Of a stretch of DNA of 64,000 nucleotides, positions 6,243 to 55,254 are shown one piece after another. How positions within the stretch are numbered: the stretch's first letter is position 1; every line of letters starts with the position of its first letter. Source of the DNA: Anaerolineae bacterium (GTDB taxonomy: Bacteria > Chloroflexota > Anaerolineae > UBA4142 > SHND01); NCBI GenBank assembly GCA_021463195.1, contig JAJTXZ010000012.1, positions 1 to 64,000 of the forward strand, read 5' to 3'. The notes under the pieces are model-generated. The model searched no databases. It was not told where the DNA came from and worked only from the letters and a program-made list of their open reading frames with translations. The position numbers and the translations under genes are program-made.

Positions 6243-7180
6243 AGATTTTAATCACAGGCGGCGCGGGTTTCATCGGTTCGCACTTGGTAGAGGAACTGGT
6301 GAAACGCGGCGAGAACGTTCGCGTGTTGGACAATTTGGCGACGGGACATTTGAAAAATCTCGACGCGGTAAAAAACAAAATCGAATTTATTCAGGGCGAT
6401 ATCGCCGACGAAAACACAACACAAAACGCCGCGCGCGACGTGGACATTATTTTTCACCAAGCCGCGCTGCCGTCCGTGCCGCGTTCCATCAAAAACCCGC
6501 GCGCGTCGCATGACGCGAATCTCACTGGCACGCTGAACGTTTTGATTGCCGCGCGCGACCACGGCGTCAAGCGCGTCGTGCTGGCAAGCAGTTCGTCGGT
6601 GTACGGCAATTCGCCGCAACTTCCCAAAGTCGAAACGTTCGAGCCGTCGCCGCTTTCGCCCTACGCGGTGACGAAACTCGCGTGCGAATATTACGCGCGC
6701 GTTTTTTCCAATCTCTACGGACTCTCGACCATTTGCTTGCGCTATTTCAATGTCTTTGGCCCGCGCCAAGACCCGACCTCGCAATACGCGGGCGCGCTCG
6801 CCAAATTCACGCAATGCGCGCTGCATCACCAACCTTTTCCCATTTACGGCGACGGCGAACAATCGCGCGATTTTACGTACATCGAAAACGTGGTGAACGC
6901 GAATTTACGCGCGGCGTATTCCGAATTCGACGGCGGCGCGGTGGTCAATATCGCGGGCGGCGCGCGCACGACGCTGAACCAAATCGTCGCGTTATTGAAT
7001 GAACTCACGCATCAAAATTTGCCGACGCAATTCGCGCCGCCGCGCGCGGGCGATGTCCTTCATTCGCACGCCGACATTTCACGCGCGCGCGAATTATTGG
7101 GTTACGCGCCGACAGTGGATGTGCGAGAGGGATTGCGGCGAACCGTGGAGTATTACGAGGGGCTGGAGACTGGAGATTAG
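6239..7180 (+). CDS. NAD-dependent nucleotide-sugar epimerase/dehydratase
   Basis: 313 residues of the extended SDR family. The NAD site GGAGFIGSHL is at residues 7-16, D31 binds the ribose of NAD, and the catalytic set is S118-S120, Y142 and K146 in PYAVTK. NVFGPRQDP and the GDGEQSRDFTYIENVV segment are typical of GalE/WbpP-like UDP-sugar 4-epimerases. The product probably feeds the cluster with UDP-galactose or a related sugar; the exact substrate is not clear. The last residues (YYEGLETGD) are encoded by a 7-base repeat tract, and the stop TAG lies inside the first arm of its hairpin. Confidence 0.9.
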   Translation: MKILITGGAGFIGSHLVEELVKRGENVRVLDNLATGHLKNLDAVKNKIEFIQGDIADENTTQNAARDVDIIFHQAALPSVPRSIKNPRASHDANLTGTLNVLIAARDHGVKRVVLASSSSVYGNSPQLPKVETFEPSPLSPYAVTKLACEYYARVFSNLYGLSTICLRYFNVFGPRQDPTSQYAGALAKFTQCALHHQPFPIYGDGEQSRDFTYIENVVNANLRAAYSEFDGGAVVNIAGGARTTLNQIVALLNELTHQNLPTQFAPPRAGDVLHSHADISRARELLGYAPTVDVREGLRRTVEYYEGLETGD

Positions 7181-7221
7181 AGACTGGAGACTCAATCTCC
7201 AGTCTCTAATCTCCAATCTCT
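7165..7221. repeat. Inverted 7-base repeat tract (4 + 4 units) forming a long hairpin
   Basis: Four units of GGAGAYT/AGAGACT type (7165-7192) are followed, after one base, by four units of the complement (AATCTCC/AGTCTCT, 7194-7221). The core arm GGAGATTAGAGACTGGAGA (7172-7190) is perfectly complementary to 7196-7214 with a 5-base loop. The tract covers the end of the epimerase gene and the leader of the next methyltransferase. Related tracts occur at many other places in the window. Confidence 0.85.
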
Positions 7222-7229
7222 TTTCTTTC

Positions 7230-7883
7230 ATGAAACTCCGCTCCCCGCACCCCCAACGTTTGCTCATCGAAACGATTGACGCGCTGTTGCAAAATCCAAA
7301 CGCGCGGATTCTCGATATCGGCGCGGGCAGCGTGGTGGAAAAAAATCGGCGCGCGGGACAATTCGCGCTGGCGGAAAAATACGCGCGCCTTGTCCAACAG
7401 CGCGGTTATTTTGGACTCGATGTGGAGGCGGGCGCGAATGTAATGTTCGTCGCCGACGCGCATTATTTGCCGATGGCGGATGAATCGCTCGACGCAGTGA
7501 TTATGGTTTCCGTGTTGGAGCATTTGTATGACCCGATTCGCGCGGTGAACCAAGTCGCGCGCGTGTTGAAAAAAGGCGGCGTCTATTTTTCATACGCGCC
7601 GTTTTATCATCCCTATCACGCGTCGCCGCACGATTATTTTCGTTTCACGCAAGAGGGCTATCGTTACCTGCTGCGCGATTTTTCGCGCGTTGAAATTGTT
7701 TCGGGCGGAAATTTTTTTGCGGTGACGAACGATGTTTTATCACACGCGTTCGGCGGCAGCCGCGCTGGGCGCGCGCTGGCGCGCGTGTTTGTCGAATTTC
7801 CCATGTCTCTTTTGTTTCGCGCGTTCGATGCCGAACAAACGTCGGACCTCGCCGTCGGTTTCGCGGCGCGCGCCATAAAATAA
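7230..7883 (+). CDS. Class I SAM-dependent methyltransferase
   Basis: About 217 residues. The ATG at 7230 follows the repeat hairpin; the longer open frame upstream is a shadow of the epimerase gene plus repeat. Motif I is ILDIGAGS, the second-strand acid is FGLDVEAG, and the post-II segment DAVIMVSVLEHLYDP is a Methyltransf_11 signature. PFYHPYHASPHDYFRFT resembles methyltransferases that act on sugars or glycolipids in surface clusters. It is followed after 8 bases by a permease gene. Confidence 0.85.
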   Translation: MKLRSPHPQRLLIETIDALLQNPNARILDIGAGSVVEKNRRAGQFALAEKYARLVQQRGYFGLDVEAGANVMFVADAHYLPMADESLDAVIMVSVLEHLYDPIRAVNQVARVLKKGGVYFSYAPFYHPYHASPHDYFRFTQEGYRYLLRDFSRVEIVSGGNFFAVTNDVLSHAFGGSRAGRALARVFVEFPMSLLFRAFDAEQTSDLAVGFAARAIK

Positions 7884-9195: not shown

Positions 9196-10371
9196 ATGCG
9201 CCTTTGTTATGTGGCATACTCGCCGCTCAATCTCGAATCCGCGAACTCGGTGCAAACGTTTAATACGCTGCGCGAACTCTCGAAACAACTTGGCGAAAAT
9301 TTGACGACGCTGGTGCCGCGTTTTGGCAATGAAGCCCCCCCCCCTTTTCCGACGCGGCAACTTGCGCGCATTCCCATCAACAAACTCTCGCGCCTTTACA
9401 AAAGCGGACGCTGGTCGTACATGGAACGCGCGCTCTACGCCGAACGCGCGAAACGCATCATCGCTTCCGTAAAACCCGATTTGATTTATACGCGCGATCT
9501 GGTGTGCGCGTATCGTTTTATTCGCGCTGATTTGCCCGTGCTGTACGAAGTGCATGATTTGGAATCGCGGCATCCGGGGCAAAACAAAAGCGCGCGCTTG
9601 CTCGAAACGCTAAAACAGATGGACGAAACAACCTTAAAGGAGTCGCGCGGCATCGCCTCGCTCACCGAAATATTTCGCCAAGAAATCATCGCGCGCGGCT
9701 GGCAGTCGCCCGAACGCGTCTTTGTCATTCCCGACGCGTACGACGACGCGATTTATTTCCCGCGCGCTAAAATGGAAATGCGCGTCAAATTAAATTTGCC
9801 GCGCGACGCGCGTATCGTCACGTACGCGGGGCTTACATTCAAATATCGCGGCTTGGATATTTTGCTGCGCGCGTTCAAACAATGGAACGATTCATCAGCG
9901 CGACTTGTCTTGATTGGCGGGCGCGAATTCGAGGTGGAGGAATTGCAAACGCTGGCGCGCGAGTCGGGAATTGTAGAACGAGTGATATTCGTGAAACGTC
10001 AAACGTCAAACGTGATTGCGGAATATCTCGCCGCAAGCGATGCCTTGGTGATTCCCGACACAGTGACGGACGCGACGGCATCGCCGCTGAAAATGTTTGA
10101 ATATATGGCGATGGCGCGTCCGATTGTTTGCGTTGACCGCGCGTCCCTGCGCGAAATTTTGCAAGACGCCGCGTTCTATTTTCCACGCGGCGAGGTGAAC
10201 GCGTTCGCGGCGCAATTACAAAATGCGGTTCAATCCGCCGCGCAGGATTTGGGCGAACGCGCGCGCGAACGCGTGGGCGATTTTACGTACGCCCGACGCG
10301 CGGAAAAAATCGCGCGCGCGGCAGCAAGCGCTCTTCAAATTTCCGAATTTTTTGAAAATTCGGAAATTTGA
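9196..10371 (+). CDS. Glycosyltransferase family 4 with poly-C run
   Basis: About 391 residues, starting MRLCYVAYSPLNLESANSVQ at the ATG at 9196, 8 bases after the permease stop. The longer upstream frame is a shadow. The C-terminal Glycos_transf_1 domain shows VTYAGLTFKYRGLDILLRA and the glutamate motif DATASPLKMFEYMAMARPIV. A run of ten C (9335-9344) lies in codons of the N-terminal domain (NEAPPPFPT); slippage there would shift the frame. The last codons (ISEFFENSEI) are encoded by a 16-bp hairpin. Confidence 0.87.
   Translation: MRLCYVAYSPLNLESANSVQTFNTLRELSKQLGENLTTLVPRFGNEAPPPFPTRQLARIPINKLSRLYKSGRWSYMERALYAERAKRIIASVKPDLIYTRDLVCAYRFIRADLPVLYEVHDLESRHPGQNKSARLLETLKQMDETTLKESRGIASLTEIFRQEIIARGWQSPERVFVIPDAYDDAIYFPRAKMEMRVKLNLPRDARIVTYAGLTFKYRGLDILLRAFKQWNDSSARLVLIGGREFEVEELQTLARESGIVERVIFVKRQTSNVIAEYLAASDALVIPDTVTDATASPLKMFEYMAMARPIVCVDRASLREILQDAAFYFPRGEVNAFAAQLQNAVQSAAQDLGERARERVGDFTYARRAEKIARAAASALQISEFFENSEI
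10336..10370. repeat. Perfect 16-bp inverted repeat at gene end
   Basis: CAAATTTCCGAATTTT (10336-10351) pairs perfectly with AAAATTCGGAAATTTG (10355-10370) over a 3-base loop. It overlaps the end of the glycosyltransferase gene and lies 10 bases before the TTG start of the next gene, where it could affect its translation. No U-tract follows, so it is not a standard terminator. A sequence-related hairpin is at 43034-43067. Confidence 0.75.
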
Positions 10372-10380
10372 AATCTGAAT

Positions 10381-33851: not shown

Positions 33852-35639
33852 CTATTTGCGCGTCACATGCGTTGCCGCCTTGTCCACGCTCAAAGTCTGG
33901 TCGTCAATCACAACACCGTATTCGCTTTCCGCCGCCGCGCGCGAAACTTTGCCATCGCGCACATCGCGCAATACGGCCTGCGGGTCGCGTTCGCTCGGTT
34001 CGCCGTAACCGCCGCCGCCGGGCAAGCGCAGCGAAACGACATCGCCCTTTTTCAATTTGTCGAGACCTTTGGATTTCAATGGACGTTCGTCGGGCGAATC
34101 GGGATTCAAAATAAATTTCCCCTTTGCGCCCTCTTTGCCGCCGAATAAACCAAACGCGCCGTACACCTGACGATCGCCATAGCGCGCGAATGACATATCG
34201 TCAATCAACACGCGAATATCGCGCCGCAAGCCCAACGCGCCGCGATATTTTCCCGCGCCGCCCGTGTCGGGAATGAATTCGTAACATTCGACGCGCGCGG
34301 GAAATTCCAATTCCACCGCCTCAACCGGCGTATTCAAAAAACGCGCGAGATGCGAATCCTGCCCGTCGCGTCCATCGCGGCAAAACCGCGCGCCCGCGCC
34401 GCCGCCTTGAATGTCAATGTACACAAAGCGTTTGCCGGTTTCGGGATGATAGCCGCTGAAACCGCAGTTGGTGATTTGTCCGTGCGAACCCGCCATCACG
34501 CGTTCGGGCAGCGCCTGCGCGAGCGCGAGCAGCATCGCTTCGGCGATTTTTTGCGATGTTTGCGTGCGCGCGCCGCACGCGCGCGGCAATTTCGGATTCA
34601 CCACCAACCCTTCACGCGCGCGCACCTCGAACGGGCGATAGCATCCTGAATTCGGCGCGACGTGCGGGTCAACGACGGCGATGAGCGCGTAATACACCGC
34701 CGCGTGCACCGTCGCCAATGGACAATTCACATTGCCCGGCACCTGTTCGTCGGTTCCGTCGAAATCCACAATCGCGCGGTCGCCCTCTTTGTGAATGTTC
34801 ACTTGCAGCTTAATCGGCTTGCCCGTCAAGCCGTCGTCGTCCACGTAATCTACGCCGGTGTACGTTCCATCGGGAATTCTTTCCAAGCCCGCGCGAATTC
34901 TTTTTTCGGAATAATCCAACAGCGCGTCGGTGTGTGTTTGAACGACGATAGGCGTGTAACGTTCAAAAATCTCGCGCAGCCGCCGCGCGCCGACAAAATT
35001 CGCGGACGCTTGCGCGCGAATGTCGCCGAGCGTTTTGTCAGGGACGCGAATGTTATTGTTCAAAATGCCGAACAGTTCCGCGTCCTCTTGTCCTTTTTTG
35101 TACAATTTCACCATTGGCAAGCGCAGACCTTCTTGATAAATTTCGGTCAGCCCCCCCTGCGTGCCGCCGGGCGCCGCGCCGCCCAAATCGGCGTGATGCG
35201 CCATCGAACCGACGAATCCGACGAGTAGGGGCGAAGCATTTGCCGAGCCACCGTTTGTCTTGCCGCGCCGCGACTGCAAATGCTTCGCCCCAACAAAAAC
35301 AGGCGCGAACGTGACCAAATCCATGACGTGCTGTCCGCCGCTGTACGGGTCGTTGAACACAATCACATCGCCGTCGTTCAAATCCTCGTCGCGGAATTGC
35401 GCGCGCAGCTGCCGCATCCCCAACTCGAAACCGGTGAGCAGCATCGGCGCGTGATGCGCTTGCGCGATAGTGTTGCCGTTGCGGTCAAAGACCGCGCACG
35501 AAATATCTTTGATTTCTTTGATGACCGTCGAACGCGCGGTGCGAATCAACGTGTGTCCCATCTCGTCCGCGATTTGTTCCATCGCGTAACGAAGGACTTG
35601 GATAAGAACGGGGTCGGCGTGCAATTTTTTCTTGGGCAT
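33852..35639 (-). CDS. hyuB: Hydantoinase/oxoprolinase-type subunit B carrying an in-frame palindromic insert
   Basis: 595 residues of the HyuB/N-methylhydantoinase B family: DPVLIQVLRYAMEQIADEMG at the N-terminus, NDPYSGGQHVMDLVTFAPVF, MAHHADLGGAAPGG and AVYYALIAVVDPHVAPNSGC. With HyuA it forms an ATP-dependent lactam hydrolase or carboxylase. In the proposed pathway it would open 2-oxoindole-3-acetate (or its CoA ester) to 2-aminophenylsuccinate. Residues about 116-138 (AKHLQSRRGKTNGGSANASP region) are an extra segment encoded by a palindromic repeat, placed just before the conserved GFVGSMAHH. Its partner hyuA is 1.7 kb upstream, split off by plus-strand genes. Confidence 0.9.
   Translation of the reverse strand: MPKKKLHADPVLIQVLRYAMEQIADEMGHTLIRTARSTVIKEIKDISCAVFDRNGNTIAQAHHAPMLLTGFELGMRQLRAQFRDEDLNDGDVIVFNDPYSGGQHVMDLVTFAPVFVGAKHLQSRRGKTNGGSANASPLLVGFVGSMAHHADLGGAAPGGTQGGLTEIYQEGLRLPMVKLYKKGQEDAELFGILNNNIRVPDKTLGDIRAQASANFVGARRLREIFERYTPIVVQTHTDALLDYSEKRIRAGLERIPDGTYTGVDYVDDDGLTGKPIKLQVNIHKEGDRAIVDFDGTDEQVPGNVNCPLATVHAAVYYALIAVVDPHVAPNSGCYRPFEVRAREGLVVNPKLPRACGARTQTSQKIAEAMLLALAQALPERVMAGSHGQITNCGFSGYHPETGKRFVYIDIQGGGAGARFCRDGRDGQDSHLARFLNTPVEAVELEFPARVECYEFIPDTGGAGKYRGALGLRRDIRVLIDDMSFARYGDRQVYGAFGLFGGKEGAKGKFILNPDSPDERPLKSKGLDKLKKGDVVSLRLPGGGGYGEPSERDPQAVLRDVRDGKVSRAAAESEYGVVIDDQTLSVDKAATHVTRK
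35225..35294. repeat. Palindromic element inserted in frame in the hydantoinase B gene
   Basis: GGGGCGAAGCATTTGC (35228-35243) pairs perfectly with GCAAATGCTTCGCCCC (35276-35291), with a 32-base loop. The element adds about 23 codons to the enzyme without changing the frame. A related element (GGGGCGAAGCATTGACA) lies between genes at 49643-49714. This resembles the way palindromic elements sit inside Rickettsia genes. Confidence 0.85.
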
Positions 35640-35685
35640 GAATTCCTCTGTTATTGCGTGATATAATTTGAACGGAGGCGCAAAA

Positions 35686-36108
35686 ATGTCTATGACCGTT
35701 ATAAAAGAATCGTCCGTCGGCTATACGGCGGAAATTGAGCGAGTCAAAGCAACAGGCGAGCCGCTTGTAATTGAAGGCGACGGCAAGCCCCTGCTCATCG
35801 TTCTGCCTTATGCGGAATACGACGCGTTGGTCAGGCAAAAGCAACAAGAACAACGCAAGACATACATGGAAGCGTTTGAACGCGAACGCGCCGCCTTTGA
35901 AACCTTAAAGCCACAGCTTTTGAAAACGCAGCTGGGTCAATACGTTGCCATTCATGGTGGACAGGTTGTAGATTCGGATGCATCCGATATTGAACTTGCC
36001 AAGCGCGTCTTGCCGCATTATCCAAAACAAGCTGTCTACATCCAACTCGTGCAAAACGAACTGCCCGTGTATGAAATTACAGCGCGCGAGGAACTAACTC
36101 GTGCCTGA
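35686..36108 (+). CDS. Phd-like N-terminal plus DUF5678-like protein, paired with an aspartyl protease
   Basis: 140 residues from the ATG at 35686 behind a strong GGAGG and 18 bases after a perfect TATAAT box (35662-35667). Residues 1-45 (SVGYTAEIERVKATGEPLVI, then GDGKPLLIVLPYAEYDAL) resemble the Phd/YefM antitoxin N-terminus. The C-terminal part, GQYVAIHGGQVVDSDASDIE and YIQLVQNELPVYEI, resembles DUF5678 modules. The stop overlaps the GTG of the protease-like gene. This two-gene layout is recurrent in bacteria but its role is not established. Confidence 0.75.
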   Translation: MSMTVIKESSVGYTAEIERVKATGEPLVIEGDGKPLLIVLPYAEYDALVRQKQQEQRKTYMEAFERERAAFETLKPQLLKTQLGQYVAIHGGQVVDSDASDIELAKRVLPHYPKQAVYIQLVQNELPVYEITAREELTRA

Positions 36109-36475
36109 TTACGACTCCCGTGAACGTCCTCCCGCGCCAATTGTTTCACTTGTTGTGACAAACTCGGAGAGCGGAACAAGCATTGTCCTCCGCGGCAAAC
36201 TGGATACGGGAGCTTCCATTTCTGTTCTGCCGATGTCCGCGCTCGAACCTCTGGAACTTTATCCGAAAGGTGAAACCGCAATCATTGGCTACGATGGCGC
36301 GCGGACTGTGCGTGAAACATATTATGCGGATTTGGAAATAGAAAGCGTGCGTTTGGCAAGCGTGCGTTTGGTAACAACATCGCGCGTAGAGATGCTCTTG
36401 GGGCGCGATGTTCTAAATCAATTCCTCATTCTCCTCGACGGCAAAGCGCTCACGTTTGAAATGCGCGAACCGTAA
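36101..36475 (+). CDS. Retropepsin-like (clan AA) aspartic protease
   Basis: 124 residues from a GTG at 36101 with GAGGA upstream. The catalytic triplet LDTGAS (D35) and the later hydrophobic-hydrophobic-Gly motif LLGRDVLNQFLILLDG are the two hallmarks of retropepsin-fold proteases. The size fits a homodimer of one-lobe subunits. The gene overlaps the upstream DUF5678-like gene by 8 bases, so they are translated together. The substrate is unknown. Confidence 0.82.
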   Translation: MPDYDSRERPPAPIVSLVVTNSESGTSIVLRGKLDTGASISVLPMSALEPLELYPKGETAIIGYDGARTVRETYYADLEIESVRLASVRLVTTSRVEMLLGRDVLNQFLILLDGKALTFEMREP

Positions 36476-36510
36476 TTCAAAAATAGCCCCAATTTAGTGA
36501 GGTGATGCAA

Positions 36511-36849
36511 ATGGCGAGAAAAATTGTGCGAGAGAGTCAAACTAGTTACACCGTGCAGTTGAAATCGAACGAGCCGTTCGACAAACCCAAGATTATCCGC
36601 CGGAATGGCAAACGTGTTGGCGCGTTCATTCCGCTTGCCGATTATCAAGAGTTTGTCGCATGGAAGAGAAAGCAGCGCGTGCTTACACCAAAATCAACGC
36701 GGCGCACGCGTGTTCCGCGCAAGCGCAAACAAAACAAGCTTACTGACTTGATTGGAATCATTCAAGCCGAGCCAAGCGGTCAAAAGATTGATCTTTCACA
36801 ATTCATGAACAAACATGGCTACGAACAACTTGACCGCGATGATACTTGA
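36511..36849 (+). CDS. Antitoxin with Phd-like N-terminus and HGYEQL tail
   Basis: 112 residues; the ATG at 36511 is preferred (AGGTGA site), with a GTG at 36502 and an ATG at 36505 as alternatives. N-terminal region TVQLKSNEPFDKPKIIRRNG and GAFIPLADYQEFVAWK recalls Phd/YefM-type DNA-binding antitoxins. A basic linker (RRTRVPRKRKQ) leads to the tail LTDLIGIIQAEPSGQKIDLS, then FMNKHGYEQL. The same tail type ends the unrelated-looking antitoxin at 45732, whose PIN partner is homologous, so the tail is the probable toxin-binding part. The stop overlaps the toxin gene by 35 bases. Confidence 0.78.
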   Translation: MARKIVRESQTSYTVQLKSNEPFDKPKIIRRNGKRVGAFIPLADYQEFVAWKRKQRVLTPKSTRRTRVPRKRKQNKLTDLIGIIQAEPSGQKIDLSQFMNKHGYEQLDRDDT

Positions 36850-37372
36850 TTTTTACGCGTCTCTCCCGCCAACGATTTATTGGGATGCAAGCTTCATCAT
36901 CAATTTCTCGCATGCCGACAACCCGTTTTACAGCGAATGTACGGAATTTTTGGCGCGCCTTGAATCTTCCGATACGCAATGTTTTGTCTCCGCTCTGGCC
37001 TTGGATGAAGTCTGGTTTGTCCTTTTGCAATTATTTGTCGCGCGTGATTATGCTCCCAGAAAATTTTGGAAGGTGTATGAGCAAGAACCCGCAGTGATTC
37101 TTGCCTACCTTGATCAAATTGAAAAAATTACAGCCAAAATTTACGCGGTACCACAGCTACGAGTTCTTGGCGTAACCCCACGCTCTCCGTTGCTGGCTCT
37201 TGAGAACATGCGCCAATTTCATCTCTTGCCGCGCGACGCGATGCATCTGGCAATCATGCGCCAACACCAAATCCCCGCCATCGCAACTCTCGACGCCGAT
37301 TTTCAATCGGTAGAAAGCATCACGATTTTCACCTGCAACCCAAATCTCCTCAACGCGTCTGCCCAAGCGTAA
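36815..37372 (+). CDS. PIN-domain toxin (VapC-like)
   Basis: 185 residues with PIN-fold acidic residues in IYWDASFIINF, ALALDEVWFVL, RDAMHLAIM and TLDADFQSV, as expected for a metal-dependent RNase. Starts at 36815 or 36839 are possible; both overlap the antitoxin gene, which implies translational coupling. It ends inside the 3' end of the convergent hyuA gene (23-base overlap), so this module was inserted or retained very tightly between hyuA and hyuB. About half of its residues match the PIN protein at 46027. Confidence 0.85.
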   Translation: MATNNLTAMILDFYASLPPTIYWDASFIINFSHADNPFYSECTEFLARLESSDTQCFVSALALDEVWFVLLQLFVARDYAPRKFWKVYEQEPAVILAYLDQIEKITAKIYAVPQLRVLGVTPRSPLLALENMRQFHLLPRDAMHLAIMRQHQIPAIATLDADFQSVESITIFTCNPNLLNASAQA

Positions 37373-39419
37373 TCACGATATTCCCCCACCCATCCAATTT
37401 CGCCGTCGCGCCCGGAATCACCACTGTGCTCGAAATAATTTCCTCAATCATGCACGGACCTGGCAGCGTCATCCCCGGTTTCAATAAATCGCGTTCGTAC
37501 ACCGGCACGTTCACAAAACCGCGTCCCGCAAAATAGACGCGGCGTTTGTTTTTCAATGCCGCGCGCGCAGAATCTTGCGCGCGTTTGCGTTTTGGCAATT
37601 TCACATCCGGGACTTGGCCGATGCCCGTGAGCCGCACGTTGATAACATCCACGCCCTCTTTTTCGGAACTGTAGGCGTACACCTTTTGATGCAGCGCGTG
37701 AAAGCGCGCCACCGTCGCGTCAATTTCTTTGCGCGTTAAATGCCCGTTGTGAACGACCGGCACATTCAACTCATACGCTTGCCCCGCGTAACGCAAATCC
37801 GCGGTCCATTGAATCGCAATATCCTCCGCCCCGATTTTTTCTTGCGCCAACGCGGCGCGCGCTTGCGCTTCCATCGTCTTGTACGCGCGCTCCAACGCGT
37901 CCAAATCCAACGCCGACGCGGATTTCGCCACCGTCTGCACGTAATCGTGACGAATGTCGCTCGTGACGAGACCGAACGCCGAGAACGCGCCGGGATACAA
38001 TGGCACAACCACTTTTTTCATTCCAATCTCTTGCGCCAATTCGCACGCGTGCAGCGCGCCCGCGCCGCCGAACGCGAGTAGCGTGAATTCGCGCGGGTCG
38101 AATCCTTTTTCAATCGAACTGCCCGCCATCCCTTTGACCATGTTCGCATTGACGACGCGAATAATGCCATACGCGGCTTGTTCCACCGACATGCCCAACG
38201 GCTGCGCGACATGTTTTTCAATCGCCGCGTGCGCGCGTTCGGGATAGAGTTTGATCTCGCCGCCGAGAAAATAATCGGGGTTCAATCTGCCCAAAACCAA
38301 ATTCGCATCGGTGACCGTTGGCAATTCGCCGCCGACGCCGTAACACGCGGGCCCCGGGTCGGACGACGCGGATTGCGGACCGACATTCAACGCGCCGCCC
38401 GCGTCCACCCACGCGATACTCCCCCCCCCCGCGCCGAGCGCGTGAACGTCCACCGCCGGAATTTTGACGGGATAGCCCTCGAACTTGCCTTCGGACGAAA
38501 TGCGCGGCACGCCGTCAATGACGAGCCCAATGTCGAAACTCGTGCCGCCCATGTCAACCGTCATCACATATTTATCGCCGATGAGTCCGCCGATGAACGC
38601 GCCCGCGACGGTGCCGCCTGCCGGACCCGAATTGACAATGTTGACCGCGTGTTCGCGCGCCGCCTCCGCCGAAATCGCGCCGCCGCTCGCTTGCATGATT
38701 CGCACCTGCACCGCGCCGTATTTTTCATTCAGCATCGCAGTCAAATTTTTCAGATAGCGTTCGACAATTGGCTGCAAGTACGCGTTGATGACCGTCGTTG
38801 ACGTGCGCTCGAATTCGCGGAACTCGGGACAGATGCTCGATGAAAGCGAAACGGGCGCTTCGGGATAAATTTCGTTGCAAATTTCTTTGACGCGCTGTTC
38901 GTGCGCTGGATTCAAAAACGAAAAGAGCAAGCACACCGCAATCGTTTCGACGCGCTGCGCCTTGAGATAATTCACCGCGCGCACAACGGAATCTTCATCC
39001 AACGGATGCACCACATTGCCGTGCGCGTCCACGCGTTCGTCCACTTCGGCGCGCAAAAAACGCGGCGCGAGCGGCGCGGGCAAATCCACGAGGAAATCGT
39101 ACAATCCTTCGTCGGGGCGCTCGACGCGCGCGATTTCCAACACATCGCGAAAGCCGCGCGTCGTCAGCAGCCCCGTGCGCGCCCCTTTGCGCTCAATCAG
39201 CGCGTTCGTCCCAATCGTCGTGCCGTGTCCATGCACCATGTAATCCAAATCCGCGATGGACGCGTTCGCGATGTTCAATATTTTTTCGATGCCGTTGAGT
39301 ACGCCCTGCGCGGGATTTTTGGGCGTGGTAAATGTTTTGGTGTAATGAATTTTTCCGCGCTGGTCATCAATGAGAACAACATCGGTAAATGTTCCGCCTA
39401 CGTCAATGCCAATACGCAT
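37350..39419 (-). CDS. hyuA: Hydantoinase/oxoprolinase-type subunit A (ATP-dependent)
   Basis: 689 residues from the ATG at 39419 (GGAGA upstream). The N-terminal actin-like ATPase begins RIGIDVGGTFTDVVLID; further motifs are HGHGTTIGTNALIERKGA, VDMGGTSFDIGLV and FGGAGALHACELA. Together with HyuB it hydrolyses or carboxylates lactam/ketone substrates using ATP. In the indoleacetate pathway known from denitrifiers an enzyme of this type opens the 2-oxoindole ring. A run of ten C (38421-38430) lies in the codons for GAGGGS. It overlaps the PIN toxin gene convergently. Confidence 0.92.
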   Translation of the reverse strand: MRIGIDVGGTFTDVVLIDDQRGKIHYTKTFTTPKNPAQGVLNGIEKILNIANASIADLDYMVHGHGTTIGTNALIERKGARTGLLTTRGFRDVLEIARVERPDEGLYDFLVDLPAPLAPRFLRAEVDERVDAHGNVVHPLDEDSVVRAVNYLKAQRVETIAVCLLFSFLNPAHEQRVKEICNEIYPEAPVSLSSSICPEFREFERTSTTVINAYLQPIVERYLKNLTAMLNEKYGAVQVRIMQASGGAISAEAAREHAVNIVNSGPAGGTVAGAFIGGLIGDKYVMTVDMGGTSFDIGLVIDGVPRISSEGKFEGYPVKIPAVDVHALGAGGGSIAWVDAGGALNVGPQSASSDPGPACYGVGGELPTVTDANLVLGRLNPDYFLGGEIKLYPERAHAAIEKHVAQPLGMSVEQAAYGIIRVVNANMVKGMAGSSIEKGFDPREFTLLAFGGAGALHACELAQEIGMKKVVVPLYPGAFSAFGLVTSDIRHDYVQTVAKSASALDLDALERAYKTMEAQARAALAQEKIGAEDIAIQWTADLRYAGQAYELNVPVVHNGHLTRKEIDATVARFHALHQKVYAYSSEKEGVDVINVRLTGIGQVPDVKLPKRKRAQDSARAALKNKRRVYFAGRGFVNVPVYERDLLKPGMTLPGPCMIEEIISSTVVIPGATAKLDGWGNIVITLGQTR

Positions 39420-39450
39420 GTGTGGTCTCCATGAGGAATAGTGAACCAGA

Positions 39451-40662
39451 TTACGGCTTCGCTGTCCGAGCCGCATCATATTCCTCGTGCAATGTTTTCA
39501 AATGTTGAATTTTCTGTCGCGCAACTTTGATAAATTTTGGGTCATTTAGCAATTCATAGGTCACGCCTTTATAAAGCAACTTGACCTCGATTTCTTCCAG
39601 AATATCTTGCGCGGAACCAAAGACGTTACTCAATTCCTCGTCCAGCATTCTTCTAATGTCTTGCTCTTTTGGTTGTTTGCCAAGATATTTCTGCCAACGC
39701 GAGGGCCAGTTATCGCGAACACTGGGCCAGAGTGCATTCGCGAGCGTGTCCCGATTCGCCTTGATTTCATTTTCCAATTTTGATCTAGTTTGACGTTGAA
39801 AGCGCATTACCCATTTACGCAATGTCTTTACTGCCACTTCAAAATCATCTTTATTCGAGCGCAATATCACGGAGCCATACCCCTGCAAAGAAATCAAGTA
39901 ACGTTTAGTAATATACTCCTTGAGTTTGCTCACACTGTTTGCAGAAAACGGGCCCGTTTCGTCCACCAATCGAAAAGAACTTTTTAACAGCCGTTTGGTT
40001 TTGTCATCACGCGCTAGACCCATCAAGTCGCTCGAAATTGGAACGCGTTTCTGCTGGAGTCTTCCACCCTTGAGTTCAAACTCGACGAACTCGAACTGCG
40101 TACTGAATACGCGCACGATACGCGCAATATCAAATTTCACGGGAGGATTCTTGTGCAAATCATTTTTGACTTGCTCGATTTGCTTTGGAGTTACGGTATC
40201 CAATCCAATTGTTTGGCTTTGTACTCCACTCTCGCTTTGACCCAAGTCTTCCAAGATGTTTAGAGGCGCAGAAAATAGAGTGACCGCATTTGGATGTTCG
40301 GACTGCGTTGTTCCTGCTTCGATGAGTAATGGCGTTGGCGCGTAGATAATTGTTTTGTCGTCCACGATGATGACACCGACACGAATACCTGGCTGATGCG
40401 TTATGAGCGTCTTTAGTTCTGCTGCTGTCGCTTGCAGTAATTCAAGCCCCTCCAGCGTACCGTACCCTAAACGCGACACTTCGGGGTCAATATCTAAAGT
40501 AATCTTTACTGAAGATGCGCCCAACATCCGCCAACGTTCTTGAATTGCCCGCGCAACTGACAGACTCAAACCTGGTGTTACGATAATCAAACGTTGTGTC
40601 GCCGATTGAATCAAACGAATCAAAGAATCGTCATTGATGCTTGTGAATGAGGATGATTGCAT
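39451..40662 (-). CDS. Conserved protein of unknown function, N-terminal PLD-like fold suspected
   Basis: 403 residues from the ATG at 40662 (TTGGAGA site; the TTG at 40674 is a weaker start). The N-terminus NDDSLIRLIQSATQRLIIVT looks like the start of a phospholipase-D-like domain, but no HKD motif is visible. Middle: LDIDPEVSRLGYGTLEGLEL and VDDKTIIYAPTPLLIEAGTT. C-terminal half is helical (QRQTRSKLENEIKANRDTLA) and ends LHEEYDAA. Codon use is less GCG-rich than in the neighbouring enzymes, which with the adjacent mazEF-like pair suggests acquired DNA. A defence or nucleic-acid role is only a guess. Confidence 0.75.
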   Translation of the reverse strand: MQSSSFTSINDDSLIRLIQSATQRLIIVTPGLSLSVARAIQERWRMLGASSVKITLDIDPEVSRLGYGTLEGLELLQATAAELKTLITHQPGIRVGVIIVDDKTIIYAPTPLLIEAGTTQSEHPNAVTLFSAPLNILEDLGQSESGVQSQTIGLDTVTPKQIEQVKNDLHKNPPVKFDIARIVRVFSTQFEFVEFELKGGRLQQKRVPISSDLMGLARDDKTKRLLKSSFRLVDETGPFSANSVSKLKEYITKRYLISLQGYGSVILRSNKDDFEVAVKTLRKWVMRFQRQTRSKLENEIKANRDTLANALWPSVRDNWPSRWQKYLGKQPKEQDIRRMLDEELSNVFGSAQDILEEIEVKLLYKGVTYELLNDPKFIKVARQKIQHLKTLHEEYDAARTAKP

Positions 40663-47156: not shown

Positions 47157-47232
47157 GGAGACTAGAGACTAGAGATTGGAGAGTGTCATTGCGAGGAACG
47201 AAGCAATCTCTAATCTCCAGTCTCCAATCTCC
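47157..47232. repeat. Inverted 7-base repeat tract flanking a GTCATTGCGAGG element
   Basis: Four GGAGACT-type units (47157-47184) and four complementary units (47205-47232) enclose GTCATTGCGAGGAACGAAG, a sequence type found as a dispersed repeat in several anaerobes. It fills the gap between the acyl-CoA dehydrogenase and MaoC genes and can fold into a long hairpin. Confidence 0.82.
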
Positions 47233-48381: not shown

Positions 48382-48449
48382 AAAGATTGGAGATTGGAGA
48401 TTGGAGATTGGAGACTGATGAAATCTCTAATCTCCAGTCTCTACTCTCT
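48382..48449. repeat. Inverted 7-base repeat tract (GGAGATT type)
   Basis: Five units in phase from 48382 to 48416 (AAAGATT, three GGAGATT, GGAGACT) are followed by four complementary units (48422-48449). It occupies the gap between the acyl-CoA dehydrogenase and CoA-transferase genes and folds into a hairpin. Confidence 0.85.
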
Positions 48450-49642: not shown

Positions 49643-49714
49643 GTAGGGGCGAAGCATTGACATTCGCGTTGGTGAATCAAGTCGCGTTCGCGCCTGTCAA
49701 TGCTTCGCCCTTAC
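49643..49714. repeat. Palindromic element, GGGGCGAAGCATT family
   Basis: A 20-base arm beginning GTAGGGGCGAAGCATTGACA (49643-49662) pairs with 49695-49714 with one G-T wobble. It separates the CoA-transferase and VOC genes. The same GGGGCGAAGCATT core is found inside the hydantoinase B gene (35225-35294), so this is a dispersed, probably mobile, palindromic family. Confidence 0.85.
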
Positions 49715-51355: not shown

Positions 51356-51375
51356 CAGCGTTAGTGAGAGAGACG

Positions 51376-51480
51376 GGAGACTAGAGATTGGAACTTGGAG
51401 ATTGGGTGATTGATTATTGATTACAAATTCCAAATTCCAAATTCTCGGTTCTCTAGTCTCTAGTCTCCATTCTCCATTCT
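51376..51480. repeat. Continuous 105-base heptamer tract (15 units, mixed families)
   Basis: From GGAGACT at 51376 to CCATTCT at 51480 every unit keeps 7-base phase while its sequence drifts: GGAGATT types, then TGATTAT/TGATTAC, then three AAATTCC-like units, then CTAGTCT and CCATTCT pairs. It fills the space between the aminotransferase and molybdenum subunit genes and encodes the last residues of the latter (KEKERMENGD). Confidence 0.88.
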
Positions 51481-54280: not shown

Positions 54281-55165
54281 TCAATCTCCAATCTCCAGTC
54301 TCAAGTCTCTAATCTCCATCAATTGTCGCCGCGTCAGCGCCTCAACCATTTCGCGGCGATACCATGCGCTGGAACGCACATCATCAATCGGTCGCGCCTC
54401 TTCCGCCGCGACGCGCGCCGCGTGCGCGATGTTTTCTTTATTTAGAATATTGCCGCGTAAAATTTCTTCGGCGCGTTTCGCGCGCAAGGGCGTCGGAGCC
54501 ACCGCGCCGAGAACGATTCGCGCATCCGCGCAGTTTCGATTTCCAAATTCCGCTTTCTGAAATTCCACCGCGACGCTGACGCCCACCATCGCAATATCCA
54601 TCGCCGCGCGATGTTCCAATTTTTTGTACGACGCGCGCGCCGCGCGCGAGTTATACGGCACAATGAGTTCGCGCAAAATTTCATCGGACTGTAAAACCGA
54701 TTTGCCGGGGCCGACAAAAAATTCGTCCAGCGACACGACGCGTTCACCCGCGGCGCCGACAATGACCGCGCGCGCGTTCAACGCCATCAGCGGCGGCGAC
54801 ATATCGGCGGACGGCGACGCGTTGCACAAATTCCCGCCGACGGTCGCGAGCGTACGCACTTGGACGCCTGCCATATTGCGCGCGGTTGCAGCGAGTACGG
54901 GAAAATATTCGCGGATGATGGGCGAGCGAATCAGTTGATTCAGCGTTACGCGCGCGCCGAGTTTCAATTCGCCGTTCAACGCGATTTCGTTCAAACCCGC
55001 GATGCGATTCAGGCTGACGACGGCGCGCGGTGTCCACTGTCCGCGTTTCATCCGAATCAACAAATCGGTCCCGCCCGCGAGCGCGCGTCCGTTGCCGTTG
55101 TGGTCGGCGAGAATGCGCGACGCTTCGGCGAGAGTGCGCGGTGAGAAAAAAGTAAATGGTTTCAT
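54281..55165 (-). CDS. FAD-binding subunit of the molybdenum hydroxylase
   Basis: 294 residues of the CoxM/XdhB family: FTFFSPRTLAEASRILADH, ALAGGTDLLIRMKRG (FAD phosphate loop), ATVGGNLCNASPSADMSPPL and the C-terminal CO_deh_flav domain. It is the first of the three hydroxylase genes. The last eleven residues (EIRDLRLEIGD) are encoded by a 7-base repeat tract (54283-54317), so the natural C-terminus has been extended by repeat DNA. Electrons leave the enzyme through this subunit. Confidence 0.93.
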   Translation of the reverse strand: MKPFTFFSPRTLAEASRILADHNGNGRALAGGTDLLIRMKRGQWTPRAVVSLNRIAGLNEIALNGELKLGARVTLNQLIRSPIIREYFPVLAATARNMAGVQVRTLATVGGNLCNASPSADMSPPLMALNARAVIVGAAGERVVSLDEFFVGPGKSVLQSDEILRELIVPYNSRAARASYKKLEHRAAMDIAMVGVSVAVEFQKAEFGNRNCADARIVLGAVAPTPLRAKRAEEILRGNILNKENIAHAARVAAEEARPIDDVRSSAWYRREMVEALTRRQLMEIRDLRLEIGD

Positions 55166-55170
55166 GTAGC

Positions 55171-55254
55171 GGAGATTGGAGCCTAGAGACTGGAGATTTT
55201 TTTCTAATCTCTAGTCTCTAATCTCTAATCGCTGACCTCCAACCGCCAGTCTCT
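55171..55254. repeat. Inverted 7-base repeat tract at the end of the oxidoreductase beta gene
   Basis: Four GGAGATT-type units (55171-55198) face complementary units from 55206 to 55254 (AATCTCT, AGTCTCT and degenerates). The tract fills the gap before the FAD subunit gene and encodes the C-terminal residues of the beta subunit (DWRLEVSD), whose stop is at 55225. Confidence 0.82.

Follow-up and report, generated by a model that had tools for sequence, protein, structure and literature searches.

A GTAG-tagged palindrome read in frame within hyuB of an Anaerolineae bacterium and its association with a RAYT-type transposase

The palindrome at positions 35225–35294 of the window (the whole stretch of 64,000 nucleotides analyzed here, from contig JAJTXZ010000012.1 of an Anaerolineae bacterium) lies in frame in a hyuB-like gene and is very probably a non-autonomous, GTAG-tagged, REP-like mobile hairpin that is dispersed by a RAYT-type HUH/Y1 transposase of the same genome, the copy in a surface turn of HyuB having survived as a stop-free change of a multiple of three nucleotides. 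In such a scheme, the RAYT would presumably recognize the hairpin as a folded single strand, through its stem and GTAG foot, and would move it without duplicating the target. One copy would then have landed in the surface turn of HyuB, where the insertion would have survived because it contains no stop in the frame used and because the net change is a multiple of three, leaving a HyuB with a 19-residue disordered loop, and the modified protein presumably works.

The palindrome in hyuB and its host protein

The 70-bp element (GTAG...CAAC), referred to below as a member of family A, was recognized both as a palindrome and by a cmsearch match (65.8 bits on the plus strand, 58.4 bits on the minus strand). 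Its layout is GTAGGGGCGAAGCATTTGC-32 nt-GCAAATGCTTCGCCCCAAC, with a left arm GGGGCGAAGCATTTGC at 35228–35243 on the plus strand and an exact inverted copy of it at 35276–35291 on the minus strand; these arms are perfect over 16 bp around the 32-nt loop, and extension to the full 35225–35294 gives 19-bp arms at 95%. The host gene (33852–35639, minus strand; Hydantoinase_B/oxoprolinase) encodes 595 residues in a frame that stays open throughout the element, and its full-length product matches Pfam Hydantoinase_B with E=6e-172 over residues 9–548, which bears out the sequence-only reading of a genuine palindrome in an uninterrupted host frame. Upstream on the same strand lies a hyuA-like gene (37350–39479). 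Between the two, on the opposite strand (35668–37372, plus), there are four small ORFs, namely a Phd/YefM-like antitoxin (weak), a retroviral-type aspartyl protease domain, a hitless ORF and a PIN-domain protein.

The insert, with the peptide GGSANASPLLVGF, corresponds to about residues 116–138 of HyuB and is flanked by predicted strands at 107–116 and 138–148. In an AlphaFold2 model with a mean pLDDT of 86 it falls exactly between two beta strands, and pLDDT drops below 50 at residues 122–134, so that the insert is predicted to be a disordered loop in a beta-turn. The filled site reads PV-FVGAKHLQSRRGKTNGGSANASPL-LVGF and its empty counterpart PV-RYQGK-LVGF. While an insertion is thus confirmed, the size of about 23 added residues first proposed for it is too large, since the net gain over the empty sites is 19, about 4–5 residues of the original turn being gone or overwritten.

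A dispersed family with a paired stem and sharp ends

A second, 72-bp copy at 49643–49714 lies between two co-directional genes; on the minus strand, its start adjoins the TGA of the preceding gene, and about 11 nt separate its end from the ATG of the following one, a CoA-transferase family III gene. Copies were gathered by pattern and model searches of the window's own assembly (G000), an Anaerolineae MAG of 4.72 Mb in 143 contigs. A strict two-arm pattern occurs at 6 places, as opposed to 0 for the reversed control, a single-arm search followed by arm pairing yields 24 copies, and a covariance model gives 62 hits over both strands, or about 31 copies. Given this number of copies and the empty control, the hyuB palindrome is not a product of chance, and the earlier view of a dispersed element with an intergenic copy at 49643–49714 holds. 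Unpaired single-arm matches read like ordinary coding sequence and were not counted as family copies. With the same model, the hits number 20, 0, 34, 126, and 36 in five other members of the genus (all genus genomes being draft assemblies), and 13 of 150 genomes of the class contain matches.

The consensus of the 24-copy alignment is GTAGGGGCRAAGCATT...AATGCTTYGCCCCTAC. Compensatory changes (G-C/A-U, G-C/U-A) occur at three stem positions, and 93.9% of the stem pair cells are kept in the alignment compared to 37–44% with slid partners. Across 67 copies from five genomes, the conserved GTA...TAC ends are sharp and the flanks random, the end tetranucleotide over 134 ends being G in 92%, T in 94%, A in 87%, and G in 80%. 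The structure common to the family is a stem of 19–20 bp and a loop of 32–34 nt with GTAG at both 5' ends, and the length is exactly 72 bp, the mode, in 43 of the 67 copies. Target duplications are absent from 62 of these 67 and show no excess over shuffles. Sharp ends, random flanks and the lack of target duplication characterize a discrete mobile unit.

The window also holds a second class of dispersed, heptamer-type repeats (GGAGACTGGAGATTAGAGA and relatives), often arranged as inverted pairs, at 7147–7239, 43593, 47157–47225, 48385–48446, 51370–51474, 52485, 54282–54310, and 55174–55220.

Association with a RAYT gene

The search for a REP-associated tyrosine transposase that had been suggested from the sequence was successful in the same genome: contig C70 carries a RAYT-type Y1/HUH gene (C70:21783–22379, equivalent to L037:1784–2380, minus strand; Pfam Y1_Tnp) that contains one family-A copy in frame and has two more as immediate neighbors, one on its upstream and one on its downstream side. 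The same arrangement is found at a RAYT gene of G005 (C161), in which the HUH motif reads MPNHLQ instead of MPNHxH. Both proteins score below the 80-bit cut-off of NF047646 (66 bits for C70 and 59 bits for C161), matching the model in two stretches around the insert. From this linkage we infer that the C70 RAYT moves family A. Two observations speak against it, the MPNHLQ motif of G005 and the situation in G004, where copies are most numerous (126 hits, or about 63 copies) and yet no recovered RAYT locus has family A at its side. In its tag, its hairpin and its linkage to a RAYT, family A behaves like a RAYT-mobilized GTAG REP.

In-frame copies and empty sites

When the copies were sorted by position, as had been proposed, most proved to be intergenic. 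Five of the 27 examined in the genome are in frame in recognized genes, namely those for HyuB, an RlmI-like methyltransferase (C82), RlmD/RumA (C2), where the copy sits within the cysteine loop CPHF...CGGC, YchF (C74), and the RAYT (C70); the rest are intergenic or in unsupported ORFs. The ORFs around the copies at C92, C68, C113, C71, C63, and C70:25223 have no or only sub-threshold domains and were dismissed as spurious. Among 33 copies sampled in G004 there was no convincing in-gene case, with one weak codon-usage candidate (L241).

The anticipated empty sites exist in relatives for both HyuB and YchF. For HyuB (PV-xxxxx-LVGF) they occur in L063, L064, L084, G002, and more distant homologues, and the insert segment is likewise absent from related solved hydantoinase chains. 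The YchF site is empty in four genus mates, the net gain at the filled site again being 19 residues.

Relatives carry other palindromes at the same spots, so that the loops of HyuB, RlmI, and RlmD are filled recurrently. Three species, each with a different insert, retain the HyuB frame and its conserved flanking motifs. In G003 (L061), HyuB contains a 70-bp relative with the junctions and length seen in G000, while G001 (L062) has its own 26-bp bulged GTAG REP at the same point, a family with 254 matches in G001. In RlmI, a family-A copy is common to G000 and G001, and the equivalent position in G004 (L168) is taken by an in-frame A+T-rich palindrome, GAAAATTCAAATTCGATTTC-GGA-GAAATCGAATTTGAATTTTC, of a family unrelated to the GTAG element of G000; a palindrome of similar style lies in the window at 10334–10372. 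The RlmD site is empty in G003, G004, and G002, and holds another GTAG REP in G001 (L178), as part of a 54-bp unit that is repeated three times in tandem and adds >50 residues to the Fe-S cysteine loop.

Alternative explanations

How the same site in HyuB came to be filled in several species is a sub-question within the mobile-hairpin reading. A single ancestral insertion, with its interior overwritten by conversion with resident copies, falls just short of an even call against independent insertions. The right junction, CGCCCCTAC followed by CTSGTSGG, is common to G000, G003, and G001, and between G000 and G003, which agree in both junctions and in length, 17 of 32 loop bases differ compared to 24% at fourfold sites (p about 3e-4). 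However, a search for a donor of the HyuB loop yielded nothing closer than 17/32 matches, and the palindromes at the RlmD and RlmI sites are unrelated and inserted at slightly different points. That the in-gene copies are kept for a function of the hairpin (an mRNA hairpin, translation pausing or a protein loop), and not merely tolerated, is unlikely. The RlmI copies of G000 and G001 differ at 1 of 38 arm bases compared to 10 of 35 loop bases, the rest of the gene differing at 20% of bases and 36% of fourfold sites, which hints at selection or conversion acting on the arms, and all 16 stem positions of the G003 HyuB copy still pair on one strand, with G.T wobbles. On the mRNA strand, though, that hairpin has decayed (z -0.8), the clean empty sites in relatives mark the element as dispensable, and the HyuB arms of G000 and G003 differ at 5 of 38 bases, no better conserved than the gene (11% of bases); with one locus behind each comparison, the evidence for arm conservation is mixed. 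The G003 insert is also the sole one similar to that of G000, and since it retains its pairing on one strand, no homologue was found with the residues and without the palindrome, the observation that had been named as fatal to an in-frame element.

Two further explanations concern the nature of the element itself. Its long matching termini, a length of 72 bp within the range of small MITEs and the TA that adjoins the ends of most copies would suit a MITE that arose by deletion from a DDE-type IS with the same terminal inverted repeats and that relies on the transposase of this IS for its movement. This origin is nevertheless improbable, even more so than a retained hairpin function, because the target-site duplication typical of such elements does not rise above the shuffled level in the 67 copies, because no gene flanked by distant arms was seen, lone arm matches looking like coding sequence, and because the element clusters at a RAYT instead. 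Scarcely credible is the notion that HyuB simply has a variable loop here, inherited vertically and palindromic by chance: its position in a turn between two strands would be in keeping with it, but the arms recur at about 30 dispersed loci with 0 control matches, and the sister species G001 has its own abundant REP at the same point. A RAYT-mobilized hairpin remains the preferred explanation for the palindrome in hyuB.

Palindromes resident in RAYT genes

RAYT relatives were gathered across the order via the N-terminal half, and 14 genes were readable past the HUH motif. Thirteen of these 14 genes, all of one subgroup, carry in-frame GTAGGGGC palindrome ends, 10 of them at both ends. All of these ends lie within about 175 nt after the HUH codons, such ends occurring elsewhere only near the 3' end of two genes. 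The resident sequences vary by species, with CAAAGCATTGGCA, GACCGG, GTTCAA, GGGGTCATCCCGCC, and CCTTGTG types. An insert is absent from L261 and from the RAYT of a Leptolinea plasmid, which matches NF047646 above the cut-off in one piece and has its own GTAG repeats flanking the gene. Of the genomes checked, G000, G005, G159 (12 in 298 kb), and G163 also contain the resident type in dispersed form. In a 393-kb sample of the G044 genome, the resident REP (GTAGGGGCGACCGG) was not found, hence not every RAYT-resident REP is shown to be dispersed. The more distant Y1 transposases L278, L280, and L281 contain GTAGAGAC-type palindromes (e.g., GTAGAGACGCAA) in the same post-HUH loop. In the text consulted from PMC3733652, PMC2817692, PMC6006769, and PMC8266576, REPs are described as flanking or overlapping the ends of RAYT genes, and no description of an in-frame REP inside a RAYT gene was found.

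In the frame AGG-GGC-GAA..., 83% of oriented copies are free of stops compared to 40% of shuffles, and 72-bp copies outside the in-frame host genes have 3 stops in 858 loop codons of that frame compared to about 3.7% in shuffled loops. The samples behind these counts are not independent, because the copies are related by descent and each was counted on both strands. A stop-free frame fits a family seeded by a translated RAYT-resident copy, and it also fits an ancestor that lacked stops by chance. The presence of in-frame palindromes in 13 of 14 RAYT genes points, short of proof, to resident copies as what renders their progeny translatable. We tentatively propose, with more doubt than conviction, that the RAYTs of this subgroup as a rule carry, in frame and directly behind the HUH motif, a copy of the palindrome on which they act, and that the progeny may be pre-adapted to read-through because the resident copy must stay stop-free. 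The family would in this way come to decorate conserved proteins such as HyuB, and the resident would turn over with the REP family of each species.

REPs in genes are usually treated as accidents and are already known; what is unusual here is that the hairpin is long and single, that the same loops are filled recurrently, and that RAYT genes have resident copies. Filled, empty and differently filled turns, together with a RAYT-resident copy, form a natural series for how a mobile palindrome comes to encode protein, which also bears on whether RAYT-resident copies are the source and on the loop tolerance of an enzyme. Annotators should be warned that peptides like RGEAL...NASPL or GAKHL...NASPL are signatures of mobile DNA and not protein domains.

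Comparison with known palindromic elements

In-frame palindromes in genes likely to encode functional proteins are a feature shared with the Rickettsia palindromic elements (RPEs), to which the element had been likened from its sequence. The likeness extends to the in-frame position, but not to kinship: PMC3733652 gives CGTC as the terminus of the R. conorii RPEs and describes repeats with this tag as apparently lacking a dedicated transposase, whereas family A carries the GTAG tag and is linked to a RAYT, so that RPEs are not its closest relatives. The 62 of 67 copies without any target-site duplication set the family apart from MITEs of DDE-type IS elements.

Family A has more in common with the GTAG REPs and their RAYT/TnpA-REP genes (REPtrons), as presented in Di Nocera et al., 2013 (PMC3733652) and Nunvar et al., 2010 (PMC2817692), with Chloroflexi among the named hosts. 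The GTAG end, a hairpin with compensatory changes, a mostly intergenic location, RAYT flanking (seen at C70 of G000 and C161 of G005) and species-specific families are all shared. So are occasional copies within genes, which were reported for GTAG REPs of several species in 2013; in recB of two Xanthomonas, different REPs occupy nearly the same position (PMC3733652). Size is where they part, as the published GTAG REPs measure 20–40 bp with stems of 5–13 bp and loops of 2–20 (PMC3733652) and family A has a mode of 72 bp, a stem of 19–20 bp and a loop of 32–34 nt. Family A further differs in having GTAG at both 5' ends; unlike REPtrons as described there, the family-A RAYT also holds a copy inside its own frame. 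With REPINs (Bertels and Rainey, 2011; PMC3116915) the family shares a long inverted structure, seemingly mobilized as a unit and tied to a RAYT. REPINs, however, are inverted pairs of REPs, each palindromic, and the family-A halves are not; family A is not a standard REPIN because its half-elements do not fold on their own beyond shuffles (z -1.1, +0.4, -1.8). It is therefore filed as a long-hairpin variant, outside both the size range of GTAG REPs and the definition of REPINs.
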